From Tychonema litorale BBK16 (lineage in GTDB: Bacteria; Cyanobacteriota; Cyanobacteriia; Cyanobacteriales; Microcoleaceae), in assembly GCF_021648855.1 (NCBI RefSeq), contig NZ_JAKJHX010000052.1, positions 1-26,783 on the forward strand: a stretch of 26,783 nt of DNA, read 5' to 3'. This document shows positions 440 through 26,783 of this stretch, piece by piece. The translations under genes and the position numbers were made by a program. The notes under the pieces are model-generated. The model was not told the DNA's origin. It worked only from the letters and a program-made list of their open reading frames with translations, and made no database searches. Positions within the stretch are counted from its first letter, which is position 1. The number at the start of each line of letters is the position of its first letter.

Positions 440-1258
440 TCAATTCTTAATCCCCGTTGCTGCAATACCTCGAATAAACTGTCGTTGACCTGCCAAAAAC
501 AGCAACACTACCGGGAGAGTTCCAATTACCACGGCGGCCATCAACAATGGCCAACTGCTAGTAAACTGCTCCTGAAACTCAGCCAAAGCTAACTGTACCG
601 TCCGTAACTCAGGCCTTGTCGTAAACACCAGTGGCTTAAACAAATCGTTCCACTCGCCGATAAACGTAAACAAAAATAGTGTCACCAAAGCAGGGCGCGC
701 CAAAGGCAACATCACCTGCCACAAAACCTGCCAGCGGTTAGCCCCATCTAGCATTGCAGCCTCTTCTAACTCGATCGGAATTGTCATGAAATATTGACGC
801 AGTAGAAAAATCCCAAAACCGTTCGCAGCCGTTGGCAAGATTAGTGCCCCGTAAGTATTGAGCAAATGACCCCACTTCAAAACTAAGAAAATGGGAATTA
901 CCAAAAGCTGAAACGGAATTACCAGTGTTGCCAAAACTCCGAGTATTAGGGCTTGCCGCCCTCGAAACTTCAGCCGGGCTAAGGCATAGCCGGCTAAAGC
1001 GGAAGTTATGACCTGAAAACCAGTTACTGCGATCGCCACTAGAGTAGAATTAAGAAATGCCAACAAAAAATTGCCCCTCTGCCAAGCCTCCTGATAGTTC
1101 GCAAGTGTCAACCCTGTGCCCTTGGCACCGACGCTATCTGGCGATAAGGAAACCAAAAATACAGTAGCCAATGGTAGCAGTACCAGGACTGCCCCCACCA
1201 GCAAGAAAATAAAACTCAACAGTTCCAGCGCCCTAGACCTATCAAAAGATTTGCCCAT
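440..1258 (-). CDS. Carbohydrate ABC transporter permease, MalG-type
   Basis: A 272-residue inner-membrane permease of the binding-protein-dependent sugar transporter family. Six hydrophobic segments are visible: the N-terminal helix at about 13-37, then around 72-95, 106-127, 138-155, 185-205 and 240-262. The EAA loop that docks on the ATPase is clear (LEEAAMLDGANRWQVLWQVM, residues about 161-180, followed by LPLARPAL). The length is normal for MalG/UgpE-type subunits. The usual partners (solute-binding protein, MalF-type permease, ATPase) are not next to it: upstream lies the divergent ado gene and downstream only a small membrane protein. It therefore probably works with subunits encoded elsewhere, as is common in cyanobacteria. 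The substrate cannot be read from sequence; sugars or glycerol-phosphate-like compounds are the family norm. Confidence 0.93.
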   Translation of the reverse strand: MGKSFDRSRALELLSFIFLLVGAVLVLLPLATVFLVSLSPDSVGAKGTGLTLANYQEAWQRGNFLLAFLNSTLVAIAVTGFQVITSALAGYALARLKFRGRQALILGVLATLVIPFQLLVIPIFLVLKWGHLLNTYGALILPTAANGFGIFLLRQYFMTIPIELEEAAMLDGANRWQVLWQVMLPLARPALVTLFLFTFIGEWNDLFKPLVFTTRPELRTVQLALAEFQEQFTSSWPLLMAAVVIGTLPVVLLFLAGQRQFIRGIAATGIKN

Positions 1259-1420
1259 AAACTTGTGAATTAATCTAAAATAATAACCTTAGTGAGGCTC
1301 TCAAACCCGATCTCCTCCCAGATTCGCACACAACCGTGAATTTTTAGTCGAAAATAGGTAAAGTGTACTGTCACTGACCCCAATTTTAAAGGGCTGTCCA
1401 AACATCCTAACAAGGTTATT

Positions 1421-1426
1421 GAGGAG
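1421..1426 (+). promoter_or_regulatory. Ribosome binding site of ado
   Basis: GAGGAG lies 12 nt before the ado ATG. The spacing is longer than usual, but it is the only strong Shine-Dalgarno in the lipid block. Confidence 0.5.
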
Positions 1427-1438
1427 AATACACATCAT

Positions 1439-16998: not shown

Positions 16999-18330
16999 TT
17001 ACACAAATTCCGATCGACCTAGGGGTAATCTTACCTGCATTTCCTGACAGCGATCCACATAATTTTGTGCAACCTGATCCAGCGGATTTTGTTGTAGACA
17101 CTCAGAAAATAGTTGTGCAGCTTCTTTCTGTTTACCAACACTATAGTTATATAAACCCTCTAAAAACTTAGGTAAAGTCATTAACTTCCCTTCCTTCACT
17201 TCAGGTTTATCAGCCTCAAATACTTCATGAATAGTCACCAAATCAGCTTTTCCTTTCACTCGAACCCGACCAATATTTCGGATAGCAAAATTGGGGCCAC
17301 CTATTAACTTTAAAAAAGTATTTTGAGTAATTAACATTGACACTCCATAGCTTTTAGTCAGGCTTTCCACCCGCGCAGCTAAATTCACCGCATCCCCAAT
17401 TACCGTACTATCCATCCTATTAGTTGCCCCAACAGTTCCTAGCATCAATGAACCCGTATTAATACCAATCCCAATTTTAATCGGTACATAACCAGCATTA
17501 ATCCGATATTGGTTATAATCATCCAGACTGTACAACATAGAAATTCCGGCTTGGACTGCATCAACTGCACTGTGACCAAACAAAGCCATAATTGCATCCC
17601 CAATATATTTATCAATAAACCCGTGGTTTTCAATAATTCCAGGTTCCATTCGACTCAAATAAGCATTAATAAATTTAAAATTTTCCTGGGGTGTCATTCC
17701 CTCAGAAAGAGCCGTAAAATCCCTAATATCAGAAAACAATATTGACATTTCTTTTTCCACACTGTCGCCCAATTTGACATCACTCAAACTGTCACGGCTT
17801 AGCAGCGAAACAAATTCGTTCGGTACAAACCGCTTAGCAGCTTCGGTTAATTTTGATTGCTGTTCCAGGGCGCATTCTAACTCCTGATTTATTTTCCGAA
17901 GTTCAGTATTTTGTGATGCCAGTTTTTTATCCTGACTGTAGCTGTGAACCGCTTCTGTTACCGTCAATTTCAAATCTTCTGTTTGCCAAGGTTTACCGAT
18001 ATAACGATATAGTTTCGCATTTTTTATGGCATTTCCTACCGCCTCAATTGTGGCCTGACCTGTTAGCATTACTTTGAGAGTTTTAGGAGACAGTTGGTGA
18101 ACTCGCCTCAACAATTCATCTCCTTTCATGTCTGGCATCACATAGTCGGAGATAATTAACGGAATTTCATACCCGGCTTCCATCAATTCAGAAACTAACT
18201 CTAGGGCATCTTCACCTCCTTCGGCAATTTCAATCCGATAAGTATTGCCTAAAGCATCTTTTAATTCAGTTTTGAGACTTTTCAAAACTGTTTTTTCATC
18301 ATCCACGCAAATAATGACTTGTTTAGTCAT
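16999..18330 (-). CDS. Receiver - class III adenylate cyclase
   Basis: A 443-residue response regulator with a cyclase output. The receiver (1-125) is complete: D10-D11, phospho-acceptor D62 (ISDYVMPDMKG), T90 and K113. A helical linker (about 131-170) leads to the class III cyclase domain (about 190-355) with metal aspartates D201 (FSDIRDFT) and D245 (KYIGDAIMALF), base-selecting K241 and T309 (STVIGDAVN), and transition-state N316 and R320 (NLAARVE). The K/T pair predicts ATP, so cAMP. The C-terminal part (about 385-435) has TPR-like helices (YNYSVGKQKEAAQLF). Its ATG overlaps the stop of the upstream receiver gene (ATGA), so translation is probably coupled. Cytosolic; likely phosphorylated by the kinase two genes upstream. 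Confidence 0.95.
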   Translation of the reverse strand: MTKQVIICVDDEKTVLKSLKTELKDALGNTYRIEIAEGGEDALELVSELMEAGYEIPLIISDYVMPDMKGDELLRRVHQLSPKTLKVMLTGQATIEAVGNAIKNAKLYRYIGKPWQTEDLKLTVTEAVHSYSQDKKLASQNTELRKINQELECALEQQSKLTEAAKRFVPNEFVSLLSRDSLSDVKLGDSVEKEMSILFSDIRDFTALSEGMTPQENFKFINAYLSRMEPGIIENHGFIDKYIGDAIMALFGHSAVDAVQAGISMLYSLDDYNQYRINAGYVPIKIGIGINTGSLMLGTVGATNRMDSTVIGDAVNLAARVESLTKSYGVSMLITQNTFLKLIGGPNFAIRNIGRVRVKGKADLVTIHEVFEADKPEVKEGKLMTLPKFLEGLYNYSVGKQKEAAQLFSECLQQNPLDQVAQNYVDRCQEMQVRLPLGRSEFV

Positions 18331-18719
18331 AACGATAAAGCCGTTTTAATGGTTTCGATCAACTCTTCTTCTGACCAAGGTTTGTGCAAACAGCGATGGA
18401 GGTTTGCTTCGTCAAATGCCCTCTGGACTGCATCTTCATCCGCTTGACCAGTCAGCATTATTTTAACAATATTCGGAAATTTTTGATGCACTCTAACTAA
18501 AAACTCATCTCCTTTCATTCCTGGCATCAACCAATCAGAAACAATCAAAATAATCATTGTTTCGTCATCATTAAATTCATCAATTAACTCTAAAGCATCA
18601 GCAGGACTCTCAGCCATTTCATAGGCATATTTATTGCCAAATGCTAATTTTAGTTGGGTTTTGAGACTTTTCAATACCACTTTTTCATCGTCAACGCACA
18701 GGATAATTGGCTTAGACAT
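18327..18719 (-). CDS. Stand-alone response regulator receiver
   Basis: A 130-residue CheY-like receiver with no output domain. D10 and D11, phospho-acceptor D62 (VSDWLMPGMKG), T90 and K113 (HKPWSEEEL) are intact and share the numbering of the receiver fused to the cyclase next door. The N-terminus (CVDDEKVVLKSLKTQLK) is also nearly the same, so the two are recent paralogues. It overlaps the cyclase gene by 4 bp. It probably competes for, or relays, phosphate between the sensor kinase and the cyclase; this is inference from context. Confidence 0.95.
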   Translation of the reverse strand: MSKPIILCVDDEKVVLKSLKTQLKLAFGNKYAYEMAESPADALELIDEFNDDETMIILIVSDWLMPGMKGDEFLVRVHQKFPNIVKIMLTGQADEDAVQRAFDEANLHRCLHKPWSEEELIETIKTALSL

Positions 18720-18772
18720 TTTTTTCCTGTTAGCTATGTATGGTGAATACTCAGTTTATTTATGACATAAAG

Positions 18773-18900
18773 TAAGCTGTTACGCATTTAAAATAGTATT
18801 GTAGGGTGCGTCAGCCCTTTCTCGTTTTCCTTGCCTAGTCAGTGTTCACGAGTGACGCACCCTACAGGCCTCGTTAGTGGTTTAAATGCGTAACAGCTTA
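18773..18900. mobile_element. 128-bp MITE-like nested inverted repeat
   Basis: Perfect 20-bp terminal arms (18773-18792 and 18881-18900, beginning TAAGCTGTTACGCATTTAAA) enclose a second perfect 14-bp inverted pair, TGTAGGGTGCGTCA (18800-18813) and its complement (18853-18866). No open frame and no clear target duplication is visible. It fills the gap between the sensor kinase stop and the receiver start. It would form a cruciform in DNA or a long hairpin in a read-through transcript. Calling it a mobile element is inference from structure. Confidence 0.7.
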
Positions 18901-18957
18901 ATAGAAAAATTGACTCCTTCTATTACTACTGTATCATCAGTTGGTTTTCAGGACTGC

Positions 18958-21735
18958 TTACGAAAGATTTACAGATAAGCAAACCGTAAAAGTGGTTTTC
19001 CCAGGAACAGATTCAACCTCAATTTTACCATGATGTTTTTCAATAATTTTTTTGACAATATCAAGTCCCAAACCCGTACCTTCTCCGGGAGGCTTAGTCG
19101 TGAAAAATGGCTCGAATATTTTGGGCATAATTTCCGCAGGAATTCCCTTCCCACTATCTGTTACCGCGACTTTGATGTAGTTGTCTTCCTGAATAATATC
19201 AATCATCAATCTGCCTTTATTATCCATTGCTTGCAGGGCATTGTGAATTAGATTTGTCCACACCTGATTCAGTTGGTCTACATAGCAGAGTATCGGGTCT
19301 ATTTTTTGGAAATTTCGCAATACTTCAACGCCTTGTTTGATGTTATTTTGATATAGGGTTAGTACAGTTTCTATTCCATCGACTATATCTGATTGAATCA
19401 TCACTTCAGAGGAGTCATAACGGGCATAACTTTTCAGGGCAAAGACGACTTTTGAAGCGCGATCCGTTGCGGTATTAATTGTTTGGGTTCCCCGCTGAAT
19501 TTCTGAGAGTTTGTAAGCCATTTCTAAGATGCGATCATGATCGTCCTTTTGCAGCAAAACCAAAAAGTCGTCGGCTTCGTAAATCCCCATATCTACCAAG
19601 GTGTCGGCAATATCATCAGCATCGTCAATATCTTGGTCTTCCAGTTCGCTAATTAAAGACCGCTTTAGTTTCCTTTCTTCTTTCGCGGTTAAACTCATAT
19701 CTTTTTGCAAAGATGTGTTGAGTAAAATGAAGAATTTTTCAGCTTCGGCAGGAGAAAGTGACTGAAACAGTGAAGGTAGGTTAGAAAGAGTTTGTCCCAA
19801 AAATTTAGTCATATTTCCAGCACTCGATCTAATCGCACCCAAAGGGGTATTTAGTTCGTGGGCTACTCCGGCTACTAATTGTCCTAACGCAGCCATTTTT
19901 TCCGATTGAATTAGTTCATTCTGAGTCGCTTGCAGATAGCCCAGGGTTTTGGAAAGTTCTTGAGTTCTTTCAGTGACTTGAACTTCGAGGGTGTGGTTGT
20001 ATTCCGCTACCAACTTCTCGGCTTCTTTGCGTTGGGTGATATCAGCAAAAGCTGCGATCGCATAACTCACATTTTCTTGATCATCATAGATAGGCGTTCC
20101 CCAAACTTCGATGGGAATCACCCGATCGCCTTTATGGATTTCTAAGTCATCAACATTCACACTTGAGCCTTTAAAAGCACAAAGTATTGGGTCTTTATCT
20201 TGAGGATATATTTCGTTGCTACCAGCCAGATAAACTTGATACTTCTCTCGAATTTCATCAGGACTGATATTATCCACTATACCTTGACCAAGCAAGGATT
20301 TAGCGCGAGAATTAATGTAGTAGGGTTTACCATTAGATTCAGCTACAAAAATCCCGACTGGAACAGCTTCTAAAATTTGGTTAAGTCTGCTTTTACTCTC
20401 AGATAATTCCCCGTTCAAAGCTTGCATTTCGGCAAAGGAAACTTGTAGTTGTTCTGCCATACTCTTAAATGAGTTAGCAAGTTCTCCAACTTCATCATTA
20501 CGGTTAATCTCTACAATATTAACCCACTGACCTTTGGTGATATTCTTTGCAGTTTCATTCAAATACAGAATGGGTTTAGTCACCCATCTAGCCGTGAGTA
20601 CGCCGACAATAATTGCTCCTGTCAAAGCTCCAATACACAACCAAATAGTCGTTTTAGTGTTGGCATTGATTTGTTCCAAAAAGTCTGCTTCTGGAATAAT
20701 TACCACAATCAGCCAATCCAAACCCTTATCATCCTTTAAGGGAGTAACTTGCACGAATTGTAGCTGGCCTTCAATCTTAAAGTTAAGCCCTTGGGTTTGC
20801 TGAATGTTACTGAGATTGCCAAAGCTCTTTTGCAGGTATTTAGTTGTGAGACTAATTACAGGGTTTTGGCTATCGATCGCCTGAATTCTTTCGGTCTCTT
20901 CACCCTTGATTAAATATACTGGATCTTTAGTCGATGTGGTGATTAAAGCGCCCGATCGCTCGACAATAAATGTCTGTCCTGACTTACCAATTTTTAACTT
21001 ACGAAGAAATTCATTGACTTGCGAAAATAATAAGTCTGTGCCAAATACTGCCTGCAACTGTCCCGATGTATCGTATAGTGGTTGCGCTGCTGTAATGCCA
21101 AGTCCTTTGCTAGTAAAGTCTGCGTAAATTTTGCTCCAAGTTGCCGTTTTTGCTTCCGTTGCTGCGACGTACCAGGGACGGACTCGGGGGTCAAATTGAG
21201 GTTTTACTTTAACTAAATTAGTAGGTTCACCTTTGTTGTTAGCAGCATAATAATTCATATTGCCTTCGGTAGACTCGCTTCTTTCTTGCAATAAGAAATC
21301 ACCTTCATTTGTACGTCTTGCGGCAATAAAATCTCCGCCGGGAGTAGCAATATATGTAACGCTTACTGTGTCAAAGGTTTGCAGTTGCTTCCAAAAGTGA
21401 CGCTGGATGCTGGGACTATCTTGCAAGTTGAGGTCGCCCAATTCAAAAGCATTAGCTTTAAACTGATTGAGTTGCTGAGGAAAGGTCATGTATGCTTGAA
21501 CACGCTCAGAGATGCGATCGCTAATTTCTTGTCGCAACTGACTAGCAACTTCATTAACGGCTTGCTGTCCGTTGCGAAATGACAGATAGCCTACAATTCC
21601 CACCGCTGCGAAGATTTGCAAGACGAAGGGAACGATCAGGACTGTTCGCAGATTCAGCACGCGAGCAGTTTTTACGGCTAATTTGCTTACAGAGTTGGTT
21701 TTATCGACAACTTTGAAGATTGATGGTGTAATCAT
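18958..21735 (-). CDS. Transmembrane sensor histidine kinase (Cache-HAMP-PAS)
   Basis: A 925-residue membrane kinase. TM1 is at about 31-53; a periplasmic double Cache-type sensor at about 55-355 ([53 protein letters not shown]); TM2 at about 362-383; HAMP at about 385-437 ([18 protein letters not shown]); PAS/PAC at about 448-572; coiled coil to about 612; H-box H626 ([15 protein letters not shown]); N-box N832 ([10 protein letters not shown]); G1 D860-G864; F-box FEPFFTT; G2 GTGLGL (886-891). Between H-box and N-box the helical domain carries an extra stretch of about 80 residues (655-735), rich in acidic residues. The Cache type often senses small organic ligands; the ligand here is unknown. 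The receiver and receiver-cyclase genes follow on the same strand after a MITE-like element. Confidence 0.95.
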
Positions 21736-21915: not shown

Positions 21916-24171
21916 TTATGCGATCGCACCCAAATTCACCCGACGAATTGCCACCACCGCAGGTTTAGGCGGATCATTAGCTTGATTCCCAGGCCAATTA
22001 GAACCTATAGGCACTTTGCGAGTTTGCATAAACTCCTGACCATCAGTAGTTTTCATCGCCAACTCACGGCTCTCAAAAGCCAGATCTTGGCGCGTTCCAT
22101 TCACCTCTCCCGGATGCTGAATTGCCAAAAACAAAGTTGTTTCATCTTCAGTAAAAAACGGCCCAGTAGTTTCGCAATCCATCGGCCCAATTCCAAATAA
22201 GAAAGCCTCCCCCGCCTTCGGGCCAGAAGCAGGCAAAAACCAAATCGCATTGTTACCATATAAACCGCGCAAATTAGATTGGTTAATCGGCTTTCCATCC
22301 TTAGCAATTCGACCCGCAGGAATAGCAGTATTAAGTTTGTCAGAAGACATATCACTCACCATCCAAATATTACCACTCTTGTCAATCATCAAATTATCTG
22401 GATTAGCAAAACCCAACCCACCATCAGCGGGTTCGCCGCCGGTAGCAAACATTTTCCACTGGAAAGTCATTGCAGACGGTTCGTTGCTATTTTCCACCAA
22501 GCGCATAATCCAGCCGTATTCGTAAGCTTTACCATCTTTACCTTGAAAAATCCGCAAATCCGGGCCGCCGTCACTATCGCTTCCAGAACCGGAAGTAAAT
22601 GTGATATAAAGAGAACCATCAGGAGCGATTTCGGTGTCTTCTGGACGAGCAGTGCAAGTAGCGCCCGCAGCACTTGCGGCATAATGAGCATCAATTAAAA
22701 TTGCACCTTGTTTTTCATTCGGAGTGCCTTCATAAAGGTCGCCTAAAGTTTTAAACTTCTGTTTAAAAGAAACGACATCTGCATCTTTGTCAAGTTTAAA
22801 ACTACCGCCTTCAGGACGCTTCGGCAAATTAATGATTCCGCCTGCATGAATGCTGGGCAAATCTGGATTAACAGCGGTGTCAGTCTTGAGTGGAATCCAG
22901 CTACCCGTACCGTCAGGATTAAACTTAGCAGCATAAAGCATTCCGTCTGTCAAGAGTTGGGAATTGGCTTTATTTTTAGGGTCTTTAACTGTATTTTTGC
23001 TGACAAATTTGTAGAGATGTCCGCTGCGCCGATCGCAACCAGAGTAAAATGCTAAAGGTTTGCCCGCTACAACTCGAATTCCGACTGCTTCGTGGCGGTA
23101 TCTTCCCAGCCAAGTATGCTTGGTTCCATAATCATTGGGATTAGCTGGATCTAGTTCGACCATCCAGCCGTATTTGTTCCCCGCTAGACCGAATGCATTA
23201 CCCAAACCGCCAATTTCTTCGGCATCAATGTAGAAGTTTTTCTGACTTGGGTCAAAAGATGTACCGTCTGCAAACACGGGTTCTGGTACAAAATTTTGGG
23301 TGTTTTCTTCAGCACTAAAAACTGTTCCCCAAGGTGTTGTCCCGCCTGCACAGTTACTAAAAGTGCCAATGATTTTGTCACCCAATTTATCGTTATAGCC
23401 TTGACCTTTTTTGTTGAATATGGCTACAGCCGGGCCTGTTGATTTCAAGTAGCGCCCGTCTGTTAAACCGGAAATACCGGTAATTCGGCGATCGGCTTTA
23501 GAATTAGTCCGTTCCCATTTGCCGTCAGGATTGCGGCGAATGGATATGACTCCCATGCCTAAATCAATTAAGGCTTCTTTGAGTACCTCAATAATCATCT
23601 TTTTTGTCGGATCTTTGTCACCTAATGCGAAAGCGTTAATCCCATCTTTTCCAGCGGGTTTAATAGCAGTTGCTAGCTGAGCAAAAGGTAGAGATTTTCC
23701 AATTACTTTTTGATAGGTTTCAATCCAAGGTTTAGCACTAATATATTCAAAGTTGACAGTCAAAAATCCTTCGTTTTTACTGGTTTCAACAAAGGAGAGA
23801 TAGTCATTGTTGTAGCCGAAGCGAGAATCGCCTACCTTGTCTCCCCAAGCAGCTATGATGTCGTAGATAAAGTCTTCGGGAAGTATGAGGTCATCTGCGA
23901 CTTCGTAGGTGCTGTAAGCTTGGACTTGCTGCTGTGAAGATGCGGTACTAATTTGGATTAATTGTCCAGTTTGGGCTACTGCGTTGCTACCTGATAGAGG
24001 CATTGGCCCTTTAATGGGTTTAAAGTTTATGCCTTCAATATTGGCAGATGTATTCGCAGGACTAGCAGGATTTCCGAAGGGCATGAAAGCTTTCTGTTGG
24101 CAAGAATTGAGTCCAACAGTACCAGCACTAGCACCCAAAAACAGTAGGAATTCGCGACGATTGATAGTCAT
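21916..24171 (-). CDS. phoX: PhoX-type alkaline phosphatase
   Basis: A 751-residue exported phosphomonoesterase of the PhoX (DUF839) family, which uses Fe and Ca to release phosphate from organic esters. The Tat signal is clear (R5-R6 in NRREFLLFLG), and LNSC (21-24) at its end is lipobox-like. Core motifs: C274 (SNCAGGTTPWGT, the iron-bridging cysteine position), E288/E289 (SAEEN), RYRHEAVG (357-364), RRSGHLYKF, RPEDTEIAPDG (509-519, with glutamate E511) and PDNLMIDKSGNIWMVSD. Length is normal for the longer bacterial PhoX group. It starts at ATG 24171; no Shine-Dalgarno is visible. A MITE-like element begins 73 bp upstream. I looked for, and did not find, an 11-bp-spaced Pho box at its own promoter. 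Confidence 0.95.
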   Translation of the reverse strand: MTINRREFLLFLGASAGTVGLNSCQQKAFMPFGNPASPANTSANIEGINFKPIKGPMPLSGSNAVAQTGQLIQISTASSQQQVQAYSTYEVADDLILPEDFIYDIIAAWGDKVGDSRFGYNNDYLSFVETSKNEGFLTVNFEYISAKPWIETYQKVIGKSLPFAQLATAIKPAGKDGINAFALGDKDPTKKMIIEVLKEALIDLGMGVISIRRNPDGKWERTNSKADRRITGISGLTDGRYLKSTGPAVAIFNKKGQGYNDKLGDKIIGTFSNCAGGTTPWGTVFSAEENTQNFVPEPVFADGTSFDPSQKNFYIDAEEIGGLGNAFGLAGNKYGWMVELDPANPNDYGTKHTWLGRYRHEAVGIRVVAGKPLAFYSGCDRRSGHLYKFVSKNTVKDPKNKANSQLLTDGMLYAAKFNPDGTGSWIPLKTDTAVNPDLPSIHAGGIINLPKRPEGGSFKLDKDADVVSFKQKFKTLGDLYEGTPNEKQGAILIDAHYAASAAGATCTARPEDTEIAPDGSLYITFTSGSGSDSDGGPDLRIFQGKDGKAYEYGWIMRLVENSNEPSAMTFQWKMFATGGEPADGGLGFANPDNLMIDKSGNIWMVSDMSSDKLNTAIPAGRIAKDGKPINQSNLRGLYGNNAIWFLPASGPKAGEAFLFGIGPMDCETTGPFFTEDETTLFLAIQHPGEVNGTRQDLAFESRELAMKTTDGQEFMQTRKVPIGSNWPGNQANDPPKPAVVAIRRVNLGAIA

Positions 24172-24243
24172 AGGTAAAGCATTGTTTAAGGATGGATTAT
24201 CGACAGATTTGTCACCGAAGTCGAATCATCTGGATACGGCAGT

Positions 24244-24446
24244 GCCCATTGGTGTCAACTTAAGCCTGAAACCCTTGGTATCTCTCGCTTTTACCTGAGT
24301 CCAGATCCCCCTAAATCCCCCTTAAGAAGGGGGACTTTGAGAAGACTCTTGTCCCCCCCTTCTTAAGGGGGGCTAGGGGGGATCTGGCCTTAATCGTTAA
24401 ACAGCAGTCTATCACTGGGTTTGACCTTAAGTTGACACCAATGGGC
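24244..24446. mobile_element. 203-bp nested inverted-repeat (MITE-like) element upstream of phoX
   Basis: Outer arms 24244-24264 (starting GCCCATTGGTGTC) and 24426-24446 are perfect 21-bp inverted repeats, with partly matching bases further in. Nested inside, 24301-24334 and 24349-24387 form a second inverted pair of the CCAGATCCCCCT...CCCCCTTAAGAAGGGGG type, a cyanobacterial dispersed repeat known to me from many genomes. There is no open frame and no clear target-site duplication. It occupies much of the phoX upstream region. Confidence 0.75.
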
Positions 24447-24665
24447 TCTTGGAGTGTCCGAACTATCATGTTTGAGTACAATCGGAATTGATATAACTCG
24501 ATCTAACCCTTTGTCTGATTTCTCATCTTTTTTAACACAATATGACAAATAAGGACACAATTTTTATTGTGTCCCTAAGTTATATTTATTGATTAATAGA
24601 AGCACCCTTTGATTAATTTTAGACTTCACCCGATCCGTATTAGTTTGTATGATTAGTTTTAGACT
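24447..24665. repeat. Spacer between phoX element and regulator, with terminator and 3'-end duplication
   Basis: Together with the MITE-like element this is a 494-bp gene-free stretch (24172-24665). Bases 24553-24574 form a 9-bp hairpin GGACACAAT-tttt-ATTGTGTCC that could end leftward transcription of the regulator (followed leftward by TTATTTGT). At 24611-24634 and 24651-24674 a 24-bp sequence (GATTARTTTTAGACTTCACC..) is repeated 40 bp apart; the second copy covers the regulator's last codons and stop. Confidence 0.65.
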
Positions 24666-25406
24666 TCACCCGAATCGATAGCCAAACCCCCGCACTGTAA
24701 TGATATATTCTGGTTGACTGGGTTCAATTTCTAATTTTTCGCGCAGCCAGCGGATGTGAACGTCCACTGTTTTGCTGTCTCCGATAAAGTCTTGTCCCCA
24801 AATTTTTTCTAGCAACTGATCGCGAGACCAAACTCGGCGCGGATAACTCATGAAAAGTTCTAGTAAGCGAAATTGTTTGGGAGAAAATTTCACTTCTAGA
24901 CTGCGAACCAGCACTCGACATTCTTCAGGAAAAAGAGTGATGCTTTTATATTGCAGCATGACTGGTTGTGGCAACTGACCGAGGCGCTGACGCCGCATTA
25001 GTGCTCGACAGCGAGCGATAAACTCCCGCATTCCAAAGGGCTTGGTTAGGTAGTCGTCGGAACCGGCTTCTAGGTAAAAAGCGCAGTTATTTGCACTTCC
25101 CCTAGCACCGATAATCAAAATAGGTACGGGATTTCCTTGATGTCGTAACATTCGACACAGATCCAAACCGTTAATTGAATCCATAATCATCAAGTTAAAG
25201 GATGAGTCACCGCGATATGATGATCCACCTTGAACGGAAGGAAGAGCGCTGCGCCCGTCGGTAGTAACGACCACCTCATAGCCCTGTTCTTCTAGGGCTA
25301 AAGCTAGCATTTCCCGCAATAGATCTTCAGCTTCTAGTAGTAAGATCCGACCCGCTTTTGCCACGGTAGACCTGGAAGGAGTTTCGCTTAATTCAGCAGA
25401 AAACAT
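24666..25406 (-). CDS. OmpR/PhoB-family response regulator with degenerate receiver
   Basis: A 246-residue regulator. The receiver (about 18-140) keeps D76 (LMIMDSINGLDL) and K122 (DYLTKPFG). The acidic pair is replaced by E25-A26-E27, the loop after D76 is shortened by about three residues (no xxxP), and the usual Thr/Ser is G100 (IIGARG). The winged-helix domain (about 148-246) is intact and PhoB/SphR-like at its end (VDVHIRWLREKLE, then ITVRGFGYRFG). Phosphorylation by the standard route is doubtful, so it may act without phosphate or through another signal. It lies upstream of phoX on the same strand and downstream of a Pho-box-like array. A family name such as SphR or NblR cannot be fixed from sequence alone. 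Confidence 0.9.
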   Translation of the reverse strand: MFSAELSETPSRSTVAKAGRILLLEAEDLLREMLALALEEQGYEVVVTTDGRSALPSVQGGSSYRGDSSFNLMIMDSINGLDLCRMLRHQGNPVPILIIGARGSANNCAFYLEAGSDDYLTKPFGMREFIARCRALMRRQRLGQLPQPVMLQYKSITLFPEECRVLVRSLEVKFSPKQFRLLELFMSYPRRVWSRDQLLEKIWGQDFIGDSKTVDVHIRWLREKLEIEPSQPEYIITVRGFGYRFG

Positions 25407-25494
25407 AGATATCAGTGTTGGAGGTATGTTTGTTTGTGACTGGTGGGAGGTGCCTTGTTCAGTAGCTGAGGCACTCTAGCGCTACGATCGCACT

Positions 25495-25677
25495 TTAGGC
25501 GATCGACATTTCAATGGTTTTACATTCTCTGCCAGTCCATCCAACAGATGCGCGCTCGACCTTTACTATTTGCTCGTACAAGGAATAAAGCCGTAGAGCA
25601 GTTGCCGGAGCCGCGCTGTCTGCCTGCGTCCAGGCATCAGAAGCCTGGTCATTTTTAGGGGTTGGTGTTAATTTCAT
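25495..25677 (-). CDS. Possible small protein, unknown
   Basis: A 60-residue frame from ATG 25677, beginning MKLTPTPKND and ending ECKTIEMSIA. It is Ala- and Thr-rich in the middle and has no membrane segment or known motif. An in-frame GTG at 25716 would add 13 residues, but neither start has a Shine-Dalgarno. In favour: it sits 60 bp downstream of a good leftward -10 with a Pho-box-like array, and 88 bp before the regulator on the same strand. Against: it is short, with no recognised relatives, and a hairpin CCAGGC/GCCTGG (25630-25648) lies inside it. It could instead be a long leader of the regulator mRNA. Confidence 0.4.
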   Translation of the reverse strand: MKLTPTPKNDQASDAWTQADSAAPATALRLYSLYEQIVKVERASVGWTGRECKTIEMSIA

Positions 25678-25736
25678 AAAACATTGCCCGCTGAGAATTG
25701 ACCAGGTAACGCCCACTTTATAGCGAGATGCTCGTA

Positions 25737-25742
25737 ATCATA
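25737..25742 (-). promoter_or_regulatory. Leftward -10 box next to the repeat array
   Basis: TATGAT read leftward, 8 nt beyond the last 8-mer of the array. This spacing fits activator-type promoters where PhoB-like proteins replace the -35 contact. Transcription would start near 25730. Confidence 0.5.
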
Positions 25743-25750
25743 CTCTTAAA

Positions 25751-25791
25751 AGGTTATTAAAAGGTAAAGCTTTGGTAATTAAGTGGTTAAA
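25751..25791 (-). promoter_or_regulatory. Four tandem 11-bp repeats, Pho-box-like
   Basis: Read leftward: TTTAACCA (25784-25791), AATTACCA (25773-25780), CTTTACCT (25762-25769) and AATAACCT (25751-25758), each separated by exactly 3 bp. The ACC cores recur every 11 bp. The first unit fits the cyanobacterial Pho-box 8-mer YTTAAYYW fully, the third 7 of 8. Direct 11-bp repeats are the known binding geometry of PhoB/SphR-type regulators. The site faces the small frame and the OmpR-type regulator; in the other direction lies the creatininase gene. Confidence 0.6.
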
Positions 25792-25887: not shown

Positions 25888-26634
25888 ATGTTGCTGCACT
25901 TGAGTACCTGGCCGGAGGTAGAAACTTATCTAGAGAGTTCCCGCGGCATAATTATCCCGATCGGCTCTACGGAACAACACGGGCCCACTGGATTGATCGG
26001 GACTGACGCAATTGCGGCCGAGGCTATAGCCCGTGGGGTCGGCGAAGCTACTAATGCTTTAATCGGCCCGACAATTAATGTGGGGATGGCATTGCACCAC
26101 ACCGGTTTTCCTGGCACTATCAGCCTGAGACCACAAACCATGATTTTGGTGATTAGGGATTATATCACTTCTTTGGCAAAAGCGGGGTTTGTGAAATATT
26201 TCTTTATCAATGGTCATGGTGGGAATATTGCCACGATGAAAGCTGCTTTTTCGGAAACTTATGCACATTTATCGGATTTGAATGTCCCGAATTGCGATCG
26301 AATTCAGTGTCAAATCGGCAATTGGTTTATGTGCGGTTCGGTGTACAAACTAGCCAAAGAATTGTATGGAAACCAAGAAGGTGGACACGCAACACCTAGC
26401 GAAGTCGCCTTAACTCAGTACCTTTATCCAGAATCCATCAAGCAGGCTCCACTTTCGGAGGAAGTTGCTTCCGGCCACAAAATCTACGGTGCCACAGATT
26501 TTCGTCGCCGATTTCCCGATGGCAGAATGGGTTCAAATCCGGCTTTAGCAACTCCTGAACATGGACAGCAATTTTATGAGTTAGCAGTGAAAGAGTTAAC
26601 TAATAATTACTTGGAATTTTTAAGCTCGGATTAA
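25888..26634 (+). CDS. Creatininase family amidohydrolase
   Basis: A 248-residue member of the creatininase/mycofactocin-MftE-like family of metal-dependent amidohydrolases. Metal-site motifs are intact: E29 and H31 in STEQHGP, D40 in GTDA, H110 in NGHGGN, and the glutamate of GGHATPSEVAL (about residue 172). Members hydrolyse creatinine, FAPy pyrimidines or peptide-type C-N bonds, so the reaction cannot be named from sequence. No mycofactocin genes or urea-cycle partners are nearby. Its ATG lies inside a TATAATG string, so no useful promoter can be read at that point, and no Shine-Dalgarno is present. Its stop codon lies at the edge of an 88-bp tandem repeat. Confidence 0.9.
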   Translation: MLLHLSTWPEVETYLESSRGIIIPIGSTEQHGPTGLIGTDAIAAEAIARGVGEATNALIGPTINVGMALHHTGFPGTISLRPQTMILVIRDYITSLAKAGFVKYFFINGHGGNIATMKAAFSETYAHLSDLNVPNCDRIQCQIGNWFMCGSVYKLAKELYGNQEGGHATPSEVALTQYLYPESIKQAPLSEEVASGHKIYGATDFRRRFPDGRMGSNPALATPEHGQQFYELAVKELTNNYLEFLSSD

Positions 26635-26783
26635 GAAATTAGGAGACGGCAGTGCCGTGTCCCTACATGATTATTTTGGGGTAGGGAAACGGCATTGCCG
26701 TGTCCGACTCGGATTAGTCGCCGAAATCAGGAGACGGCAGTGCCGTGTCCCTACATGATTATTTTGGGGTAGGGAAACGGCAT
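26635..26783. repeat. 88-bp tandem repeat, truncated by window end
   Basis: Unit 1 is 26635-26722 and unit 2 starts at 26723 and runs off the window after 61 bp, nearly identical. Each unit carries a pair of palindromes, ACGGCAGTGCCGT and ACGGCATTGCCGT-type, joined by TACATGATTATTTTGGGGTA. The string CTCGGATTA before unit 1, at the end of the creatininase gene, recurs inside unit 1 before unit 2, so the duplication probably included the gene's last codons. The same palindrome family opens the window. Confidence 0.9.

Follow-up and report, generated by a model that had tools for sequence, protein, structure and literature searches.

A Putative Self-Activating sphR Operon in Microcoleaceae-Type Cyanobacteria without SphS and PhoU

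The sphR Locus and Its Pho-Box Array

The DNA stretch analyzed here, hereafter called the window, comprises positions 1 to 26,783 of contig NZ_JAKJHX010000052.1 of Tychonema litorale BBK16 (RefSeq assembly GCF_021648855.1; 26,783 nt). Near its right-hand end it carries on the minus strand, in the order of leftward reading, a four-unit array of the Pho-box type (25751–25791), a predicted −10 element (25737–25742), a small gene, a possible RNA hairpin, the sphR gene for a regulator of the OmpR/PhoB type and the phoX gene for an alkaline phosphatase (21916–24171), with a creatininase gene lying divergently on the other side of the array.

On the plus strand the triplet GGT stands at positions 25752, 25763, 25774 and 25785; with both strands scanned, this is the only place in the window where GGT occurs fourfold with a period of 11 bp, and no other trinucleotide of the plus strand recurs in this way. 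Read on the minus strand from 25791 to 25751, the array consists of TTTAACCA ctt AATTACCA aag CTTTACCT ttt AATAACCT and is followed by the 8 nt TTTAAGAG and then by TATGAT (25742 to 25737). Both the four 8-mers with their exact 3-bp spacers and the leftward hexamer at a distance of 8 nt had been described in the first-pass annotation and are indeed seen in the sequence, the offset being common to the family sequences considered below. The locus thus presents four 8-bp direct repeats with 3-bp spacers at an exact 11-bp period (a Pho box having at least three), placed directly upstream of a −10 element and composed of CTTAACCT-like units, of which unit 2 (AATTACCA) fits the consensus poorly.

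With a weight matrix derived from 11 sites published by Su et al. (2007), which contribute 33 Pho-box units and none of which comes from the loci scored here, the array scores 21.3 bits, and this is the top four-unit match in the window. Resampling of the whole window as first-order Markov sequences never reached this value (0 of 200, maximum 18.8 bits), nor did resampling of the local AT-rich stretch of 160 nt (0 of 2000), in which the maximum of 21.07 bits leaves a narrow margin. Transcription would be expected to start near position 25730. A second apparent array at the phoX start codon (24161–24201, 16.4 bits) was set aside, since it overlaps the start codon; its three-unit score of 17.3 lies inside the range of the window resampling (maximum 18.9). 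No Rfam family matches anywhere in the window at the gathering threshold.

Repeats of other kinds are also present in the window. Two 61-nt direct repeats, 98% identical and 88 nt apart from start to start, occupy positions 26635–26783 together with CGGCAGTGCCGTGTCCCTAC and extend up to the window end, and short tandem repeats starting near 2295, 3410, 6258, 11346, 15529 and 15597 appear as matches with a 14-bp period, partly of the heptamer type.

Elsewhere in the T. litorale genome, an array of the same type precedes a second phoX gene (L190) and another (L193, 1286–1326, 24.4 bits) precedes pstS, which starts at 1363 and is followed by pstC, the latter recognized by eye; the other four of the five PstS-like loci have no strong array, their four-unit scores being at most 13.2 bits. 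A four-unit array of 23.1 bits (L188, G000:C97, 1501–1541) ends about 60 nt upstream of a Crp-type gene (785–1438, minus strand), a regulator that recalls PtrA. Prochlorococcus NATL2A has a crp-sphR-sphS operon according to Su et al. (2007; PMC1906773), whereas the Crp-type gene found here is not linked to sphR. Positions 1488–1528 of L189 (G000:C105), 350 nt before an ArsR-type gene, hold a near-perfect tandem 11-mer, TTTAACTTAAA, which could represent either a Pho box or a simple repeat. The resulting list of regulon members is a weak one, because the strict three-unit pattern gave eight matches genome-wide at five places, one of which is an unrelated simple repeat, against two matches for the reversed control pattern.

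Conservation of the Array and of the Small Gene

For comparison we fetched the best 80 of 124 SphR relatives in named genomes. Split by receiver type, these loci comprise 48 of a Microcoleaceae-type family (L031–L077 and L085), which with the window make 49 family sequences, and 32 outgroup loci; whether sphS adjoins sphR or not splits the 80 loci identically. The family records bear the names Microcoleus, Tychonema, Kamptonema, Okeania, Hydrocoleum, Trichodesmium, Planktothrix, Arthrospira and others, and two of the loci (L046 and L048) are nearly identical at sphR.

The scan of related genomes that had been proposed as a check bears out the array more strongly than the resampling does, for the matrix search locates it upstream of the orthologous regulator gene in all 49 family sequences. 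It lies within 500 nt of sphR in 48 of them (p = 0.0099, the floor of 100 resamplings) and at −533, with a score of 26.8, in the remaining one (L066); its start is 351–408 nt before sphR with the exception of three sequences (467, 483 and 533 nt), and the lowest score in the direction of sphR, the short window of L066 left aside, is 14.3 (L051). The hexamer TANNAT follows 8 nt past the last unit in 48 of the 49 sequences and is replaced by TAATGT in L074, so that TANN(A/G)T is found in all. When the window is compared without gaps with ten distant family loci, identity reaches 0.71 in the array and 0.73 in the −10 element, against 0.35–0.43 in neighboring stretches. Only 3 of the 32 outgroup loci have a match with p < 0.02, namely L108 (on the opposite strand, 21.8 bits), L103 (11.6) and L079 (11.0), and TANNAT at +8 is absent from these three arrays in the outgroup sequence inspected. 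A stricter search for at least three ACC triplets with an 11-bp period had recovered the array in 21 of the 48 fetched family loci and missed 27; the matrix search was substituted for it.

The gene of 60 aa that the first-pass annotation considered possible gains support as a real one. Located at 25495–25677 on the minus strand (MKLTPTPKNDQ...SVGWTGRECKTIEMSIA), it would be the first gene of the predicted transcript, and an ATG open reading frame that spans 48–90 codons and encodes a V(G/R)W motif is present between the −10 element and sphR in the window and in 47 of the 48 fetched family loci (48 of 49 sequences); in Trichodesmium erythraeum (L074) the gene is broken into fragments in different frames. 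Codon-level purifying selection is apparent from Nei-Gojobori dN/dS values of 0.40, 0.40, 0.39 and 0.34 in four groups, together covering 40 of the 49 sequences (the calculation omitted L048, L051, L055, L059, L068, L069, L070, L073 and L074, in which the gene is broken); shifted frames gave pN/pS of 0.74–1.17 and 2.5–5.2 stops per sequence. A profile of 35 sequences of the small protein finds matches in 8 of 9 family genomes and in none of 144 others. Scanning 35 of the 48 intact sequences against Pfam returned no family above the cut-off, and the relatives retrieved by searches with the single sequence and with the 35-sequence alignment have no precomputed Pfam domain and are called hypothetical where named. 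The structure model is a long helix (pLDDT 69).

Just upstream of sphR, compensatory changes provide moderate evidence for an RNA hairpin (25447–25476, minus strand). In an alignment of 21 sequences of the Microcoleus, Tychonema and Kamptonema type it has eight pairs, four of them changed on both sides, and four of five measures lie above nearly all shuffles, the fifth (further pair types) being equaled or exceeded in 474 of 500. Folding of the whole 5′ leader is not clearly above that of shuffled sequences (z = −1.5; 6 of 100 as good).

Degenerate SphR Receiver and Absence of SphS and PhoU

The regulator encoded at 24666–25406 (minus strand) can be identified as the SphR of T. litorale on the basis of Pfam and NCBIfam matches, residue comparison and its similarity to outgroup SphR. 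The SphR of Oscillatoria PCC 10802 (L081), which is encoded in an sphR-sphS operon, finds it as the best match in the genome (61% identity, 333 bits), the second of ten matches having 43% identity and 165 bits; SphR and the adjacent regulator, which had been treated as two proteins, are consequently one. Eight further OmpR-type regulators in the genome show 31–37% identity to it, and those recognized by NCBIfam cut-offs include RpaB, NblR and RppA. Since the window regulator is SphR, a Pho box ahead of its gene would therefore mean autoregulation.

The assignment to the PhoB type holds for the protein family and for the DNA-binding domain (Trans_reg_C), but not for an ordinary receiver, because active-site residues are missing. 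In an alignment of 81 SphR proteins (49 family and 32 outgroup), all 49 family sequences have Gly in place of the Ser at the receiver T-site, 48 of them have lost the second acidic residue of the metal-binding pair (DD2), which L070 retains, and four residues (LMLP) directly past the phospho-acceptor Asp are deleted in all 49. The T-site, DD2 and the residues after the Asp are canonical in all 32 outgroup proteins; the phospho-acceptor Asp itself and the Lys are retained throughout the family. By the definition of Bourret et al. (2025; PMC12632262), a receiver without any one of five residues is a pseudo-receiver, phosphorylation-independent working being no part of the definition; the window SphR is without two of the five, T and one of DD. 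Identity of the family to Oscillatoria is 0.55 in the receiver and 0.82 in the DNA-binding domain, the corresponding values for Nostocales versus Oscillatoria being 0.75 and 0.84, and within the family the receiver has a mean identity of 0.80.

Phylogenetic trees of the DNA-binding domain place the family in one clade with a support of 0.89; it forms a clade also in the tree of full-length SphR, in which the node support is 0.0 as rooted. The AlphaFold model of SphR (mean pLDDT 75, 30 rows) has strands at the position expected for helix 4 and aligns with solved whole regulators at TM values of 0.33–0.49.

Searches with the Oscillatoria SphS (L081:8766–10193) and PhoU (L081:10522–11190) indicate that both proteins are missing from the family. 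A match of SphS grade was found in none of 61 family genomes, including that of T. litorale, which accordingly appears not to encode the cognate kinase of an SphS-SphR system. The kinase search, in which 26 first-look candidates were scored per genome, gave partial matches of 31–36% identity in four family genomes (best 4e-22) and nothing at 1e-20 in the other 57; the four weak matches are taken for other kinases. Outside the family, SphS is found in 143 of 146 genomes with a weakest best match of 9e-78, and the three genomes without it comprise two that are less than 90% complete and one that is 99% complete with a size of 2.2 Mb. PhoU was detected in 0 of 61 family genomes versus 56 of 56 outside. 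The Pfam PhoU model, too, has no match in 58 of 60 family genomes, and the only matches in the other two fall within open frames 583 and 587 aa long, which are presumably Na/phosphate cotransporters. The sphR gene was found in 59 of the 61 family genomes and in all 52 of good quality, the two exceptions being 85% and 81% complete.

Gene order follows the same division. In all 32 outgroup loci sphS directly follows sphR and shares its strand (match start at +0.7 to +1.7 kb), against 0 of 48 family loci, and a PhoU match comes after sphS in 11 of the 32. Outgroup loci of the Oscillatoria type (L079–L082) show the order sphR-sphS-phoU-phoX, phoX being reached at +3.5 to +3.8 kb. Of the 48 family loci, 24 have phoX downstream of sphR, at a distance of +0.8 to +2.6 kb; several contigs end early, but phoX is absent from some loci, for example L036, despite 8.7 kb of coverage. 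The window has phoX, recognized by its Pfam PhoX match, as the next gene downstream of the regulator, in accordance with the first-pass annotation. On the simplest reading of these gene orders, sphS and phoU would have been excised from between sphR and phoX.

Between phoX and sphR, at 24241–24449, the window contains a MITE-like element of nested inverted repeats, with 24-nt arms at 24241 and 24426 (96% identity) and 36-nt arms at 24298 and 24355 (86%); it sits where Oscillatoria-type outgroups have sphS and phoU. Downstream of phoX, positions 16999–21735 encode a Cache-HAMP-PAS histidine kinase, a single-domain response regulator and a response-regulator cyclase. Twelve of the 48 family loci, all of the Microcoleus type, have a close relative of this Cache-domain kinase near sphR.

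A Putative Autoregulatory Loop and Its Alternatives

We regard it as fairly probable that the array is an SphR site, belonging to a self-activating sphR operon kept in a lineage that lost SphS and PhoU, in which SphR, as a pseudo-receiver regulator, probably works without ordinary SphS-dependent phosphorylation. The array would take the place of a −35 element and drive a leftward transcript of the 60-aa gene and sphR. In the simplest arrangement, two SphR dimers placed head to tail would occupy the four direct-repeat units and recruit RNA polymerase at TATGAT, SphR thereby activating its own gene. Autoregulation would have been kept in the lineage comprising the eight genera named above, in which SphS and PhoU were lost, the receiver became a pseudo-receiver and the DNA-binding domain stayed conserved. 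The amount of SphR, as set by the loop, would then be a main control variable. From sequence comparison we infer the binding, its positive sign and the phosphorylation independence of SphR; activation of its own operon by SphR acting as a pseudo-receiver regulator is the most likely interpretation. The phosphate control and autoregulation suggested in the first-pass annotation are thus supported by the presence of the array and of the −10 offset before sphR in 49 of 49 family sequences.

The same data bear on whether the array serves sphR at all. In the window the divergent creatininase gene (25888–26634), which the first-pass annotation had named as the alternative target, begins about 100 bp from the array, and 44 of the 48 family loci have it upstream in divergent orientation (the search in L033 covering 542 nt of upstream DNA), which would suit an array serving this gene, with or without sphR. 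The −10 element at its fixed offset reads towards sphR in all 49 sequences, however, and the array stays 352–370 nt from sphR where creatininase is distant (1.3–1.9 kb from sphR in five Okeania loci and L075); L069, L070 and L071, which have no creatininase match within 3–8 kb of upstream DNA, retain the array as well. The array therefore appears to go with sphR rather than with creatininase, and the small gene and the regulator would be its target, because its place and −10 offset are kept across genera, also without creatininase. That the array serves creatininase, with or without sphR, is accordingly very unlikely, though this gene might be a second target. Equally improbable as the protein bound by the repeats is an OmpR-type regulator other than SphR, for example RpaB or one of the orphan paralogues. 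The genome encodes at least nine regulators of this type, which generally bind direct repeats, but the units and their spacing fit the published SphR matrix and similar arrays stand before phosphate genes. A chance pattern in AT-rich intergenic DNA, to which the local resampling maximum so close to the observed score might have pointed, is refuted by the conservation in 49 of 49 family sequences from at least eight named genera with a fixed −10 offset, and we give it practically no weight.

Two further accounts concern the input to SphR rather than the array. Array and autoregulation may hold while SphR is still phosphorylated on its Asp, by a different histidine kinase or from acetyl phosphate, the receiver changes then tuning it to a new partner; this we consider possible but doubtful. 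Some phosphorylation of SphR is conceivable because the Asp and Lys are kept in 49 of 49 sequences, and the conservation of the receiver within the family, the Cache-domain kinase gene downstream of phoX with its relatives near sphR, and the activation by other regulators suggested by Su et al. (PMC1906773) all point the same way. Normal phosphotransfer is, however, hard to square with a receiver that has lost the T-site Ser, one metal-binding acid and the four residues following the Asp, and the Cache kinase was not found near sphR within the flanks covered in the Okeania, Trichodesmium, Planktothrix and Arthrospira loci. A more speculative scheme, to which we assign a low probability, is a kinase-less switch in which, once SphS and PhoU had been lost, the small protein encoded under the Pho box would bind the pseudo-receiver and set SphR activity by feedback, turning a two-component system into a one-component regulator with a small-protein partner. 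An essential sensor role of the small protein is disfavored because its gene is broken in T. erythraeum L074, and sphR of T. erythraeum responds to phosphate. Under the preferred reading of a self-activating sphR operon, the loop alone cannot sense phosphate and a separate input is needed, which might come from a different kinase that targets the retained Asp, from regulation of the amount or stability of SphR, or from the small protein.

Part of this picture has a precedent in Trichodesmium IMS101, for whose sphR (Tery_2902) Su et al. (2007; PMC1906773) predict Pho boxes and autoregulation and report that sphS is not encoded. The T. litorale locus resembles it in its tandem Pho boxes before sphR, its predicted autoregulation and the absence of sphS. 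To that description of one genome we add the receiver changes, the family-wide loss of sphS and phoU and the small gene, features beyond the portion of Su et al. that deals with this sphR. In the expression results on this gene in PMC6411698, the Tery_2902 transcript is up under phosphate deficiency, returns to the control level within 4 h after resupply and shows co-expression with phoX, phoA and phnD, which are Pho-box genes. Because the sphR transcript of T. erythraeum, whose locus L074 we infer to be Tery_2902, responds to phosphate, a live loop in the family is supported.

The SphS-SphR systems of Synechocystis and Synechococcus share with the present locus the regulator family and the box type (CTTAACCT-like units with 3-bp spacers), but here SphS is missing, the receiver is degenerate and sphR has a Pho box of its own. 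The PhoB-PhoR system of Escherichia coli is similar in the tandem box just upstream of the −10 element and in its autoregulation; unlike it, the T. litorale locus has no kinase, a different box sequence and a small gene ahead of the regulator. ChxR, HP1043, CosR and RitR are atypical response regulators with pseudo-receivers, and family SphR is like the atypical regulators with pseudo-receivers in combining OmpR/PhoB-type output with a receiver that is without active-site residues. It differs from them in that the Asp is kept, canonical sister lineages are available for comparison and the kinase gene is absent. A search of the open-access literature, with subscription papers mostly outside its scope, found no description of a pseudo-receiver SphR or of family-wide SphS loss. 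The loss of SphS and PhoU across the family, tied to a pseudo-receiver SphR, thus appears to be new, as does the predicted operon opening with a conserved small gene.

Phosphate sensing in cyanobacteria is attributed to SphS-SphR. Should the family, to which Trichodesmium, Planktothrix, Microcoleus and Arthrospira belong, manage its Pho response in the absence of SphS and PhoU, it has some other sensor. In addition, a pseudo-receiver regulator can be compared at this locus with its intact sister state, which bears on how pseudo-receivers are activated, a question called open by Bourret et al. (PMC12632262).
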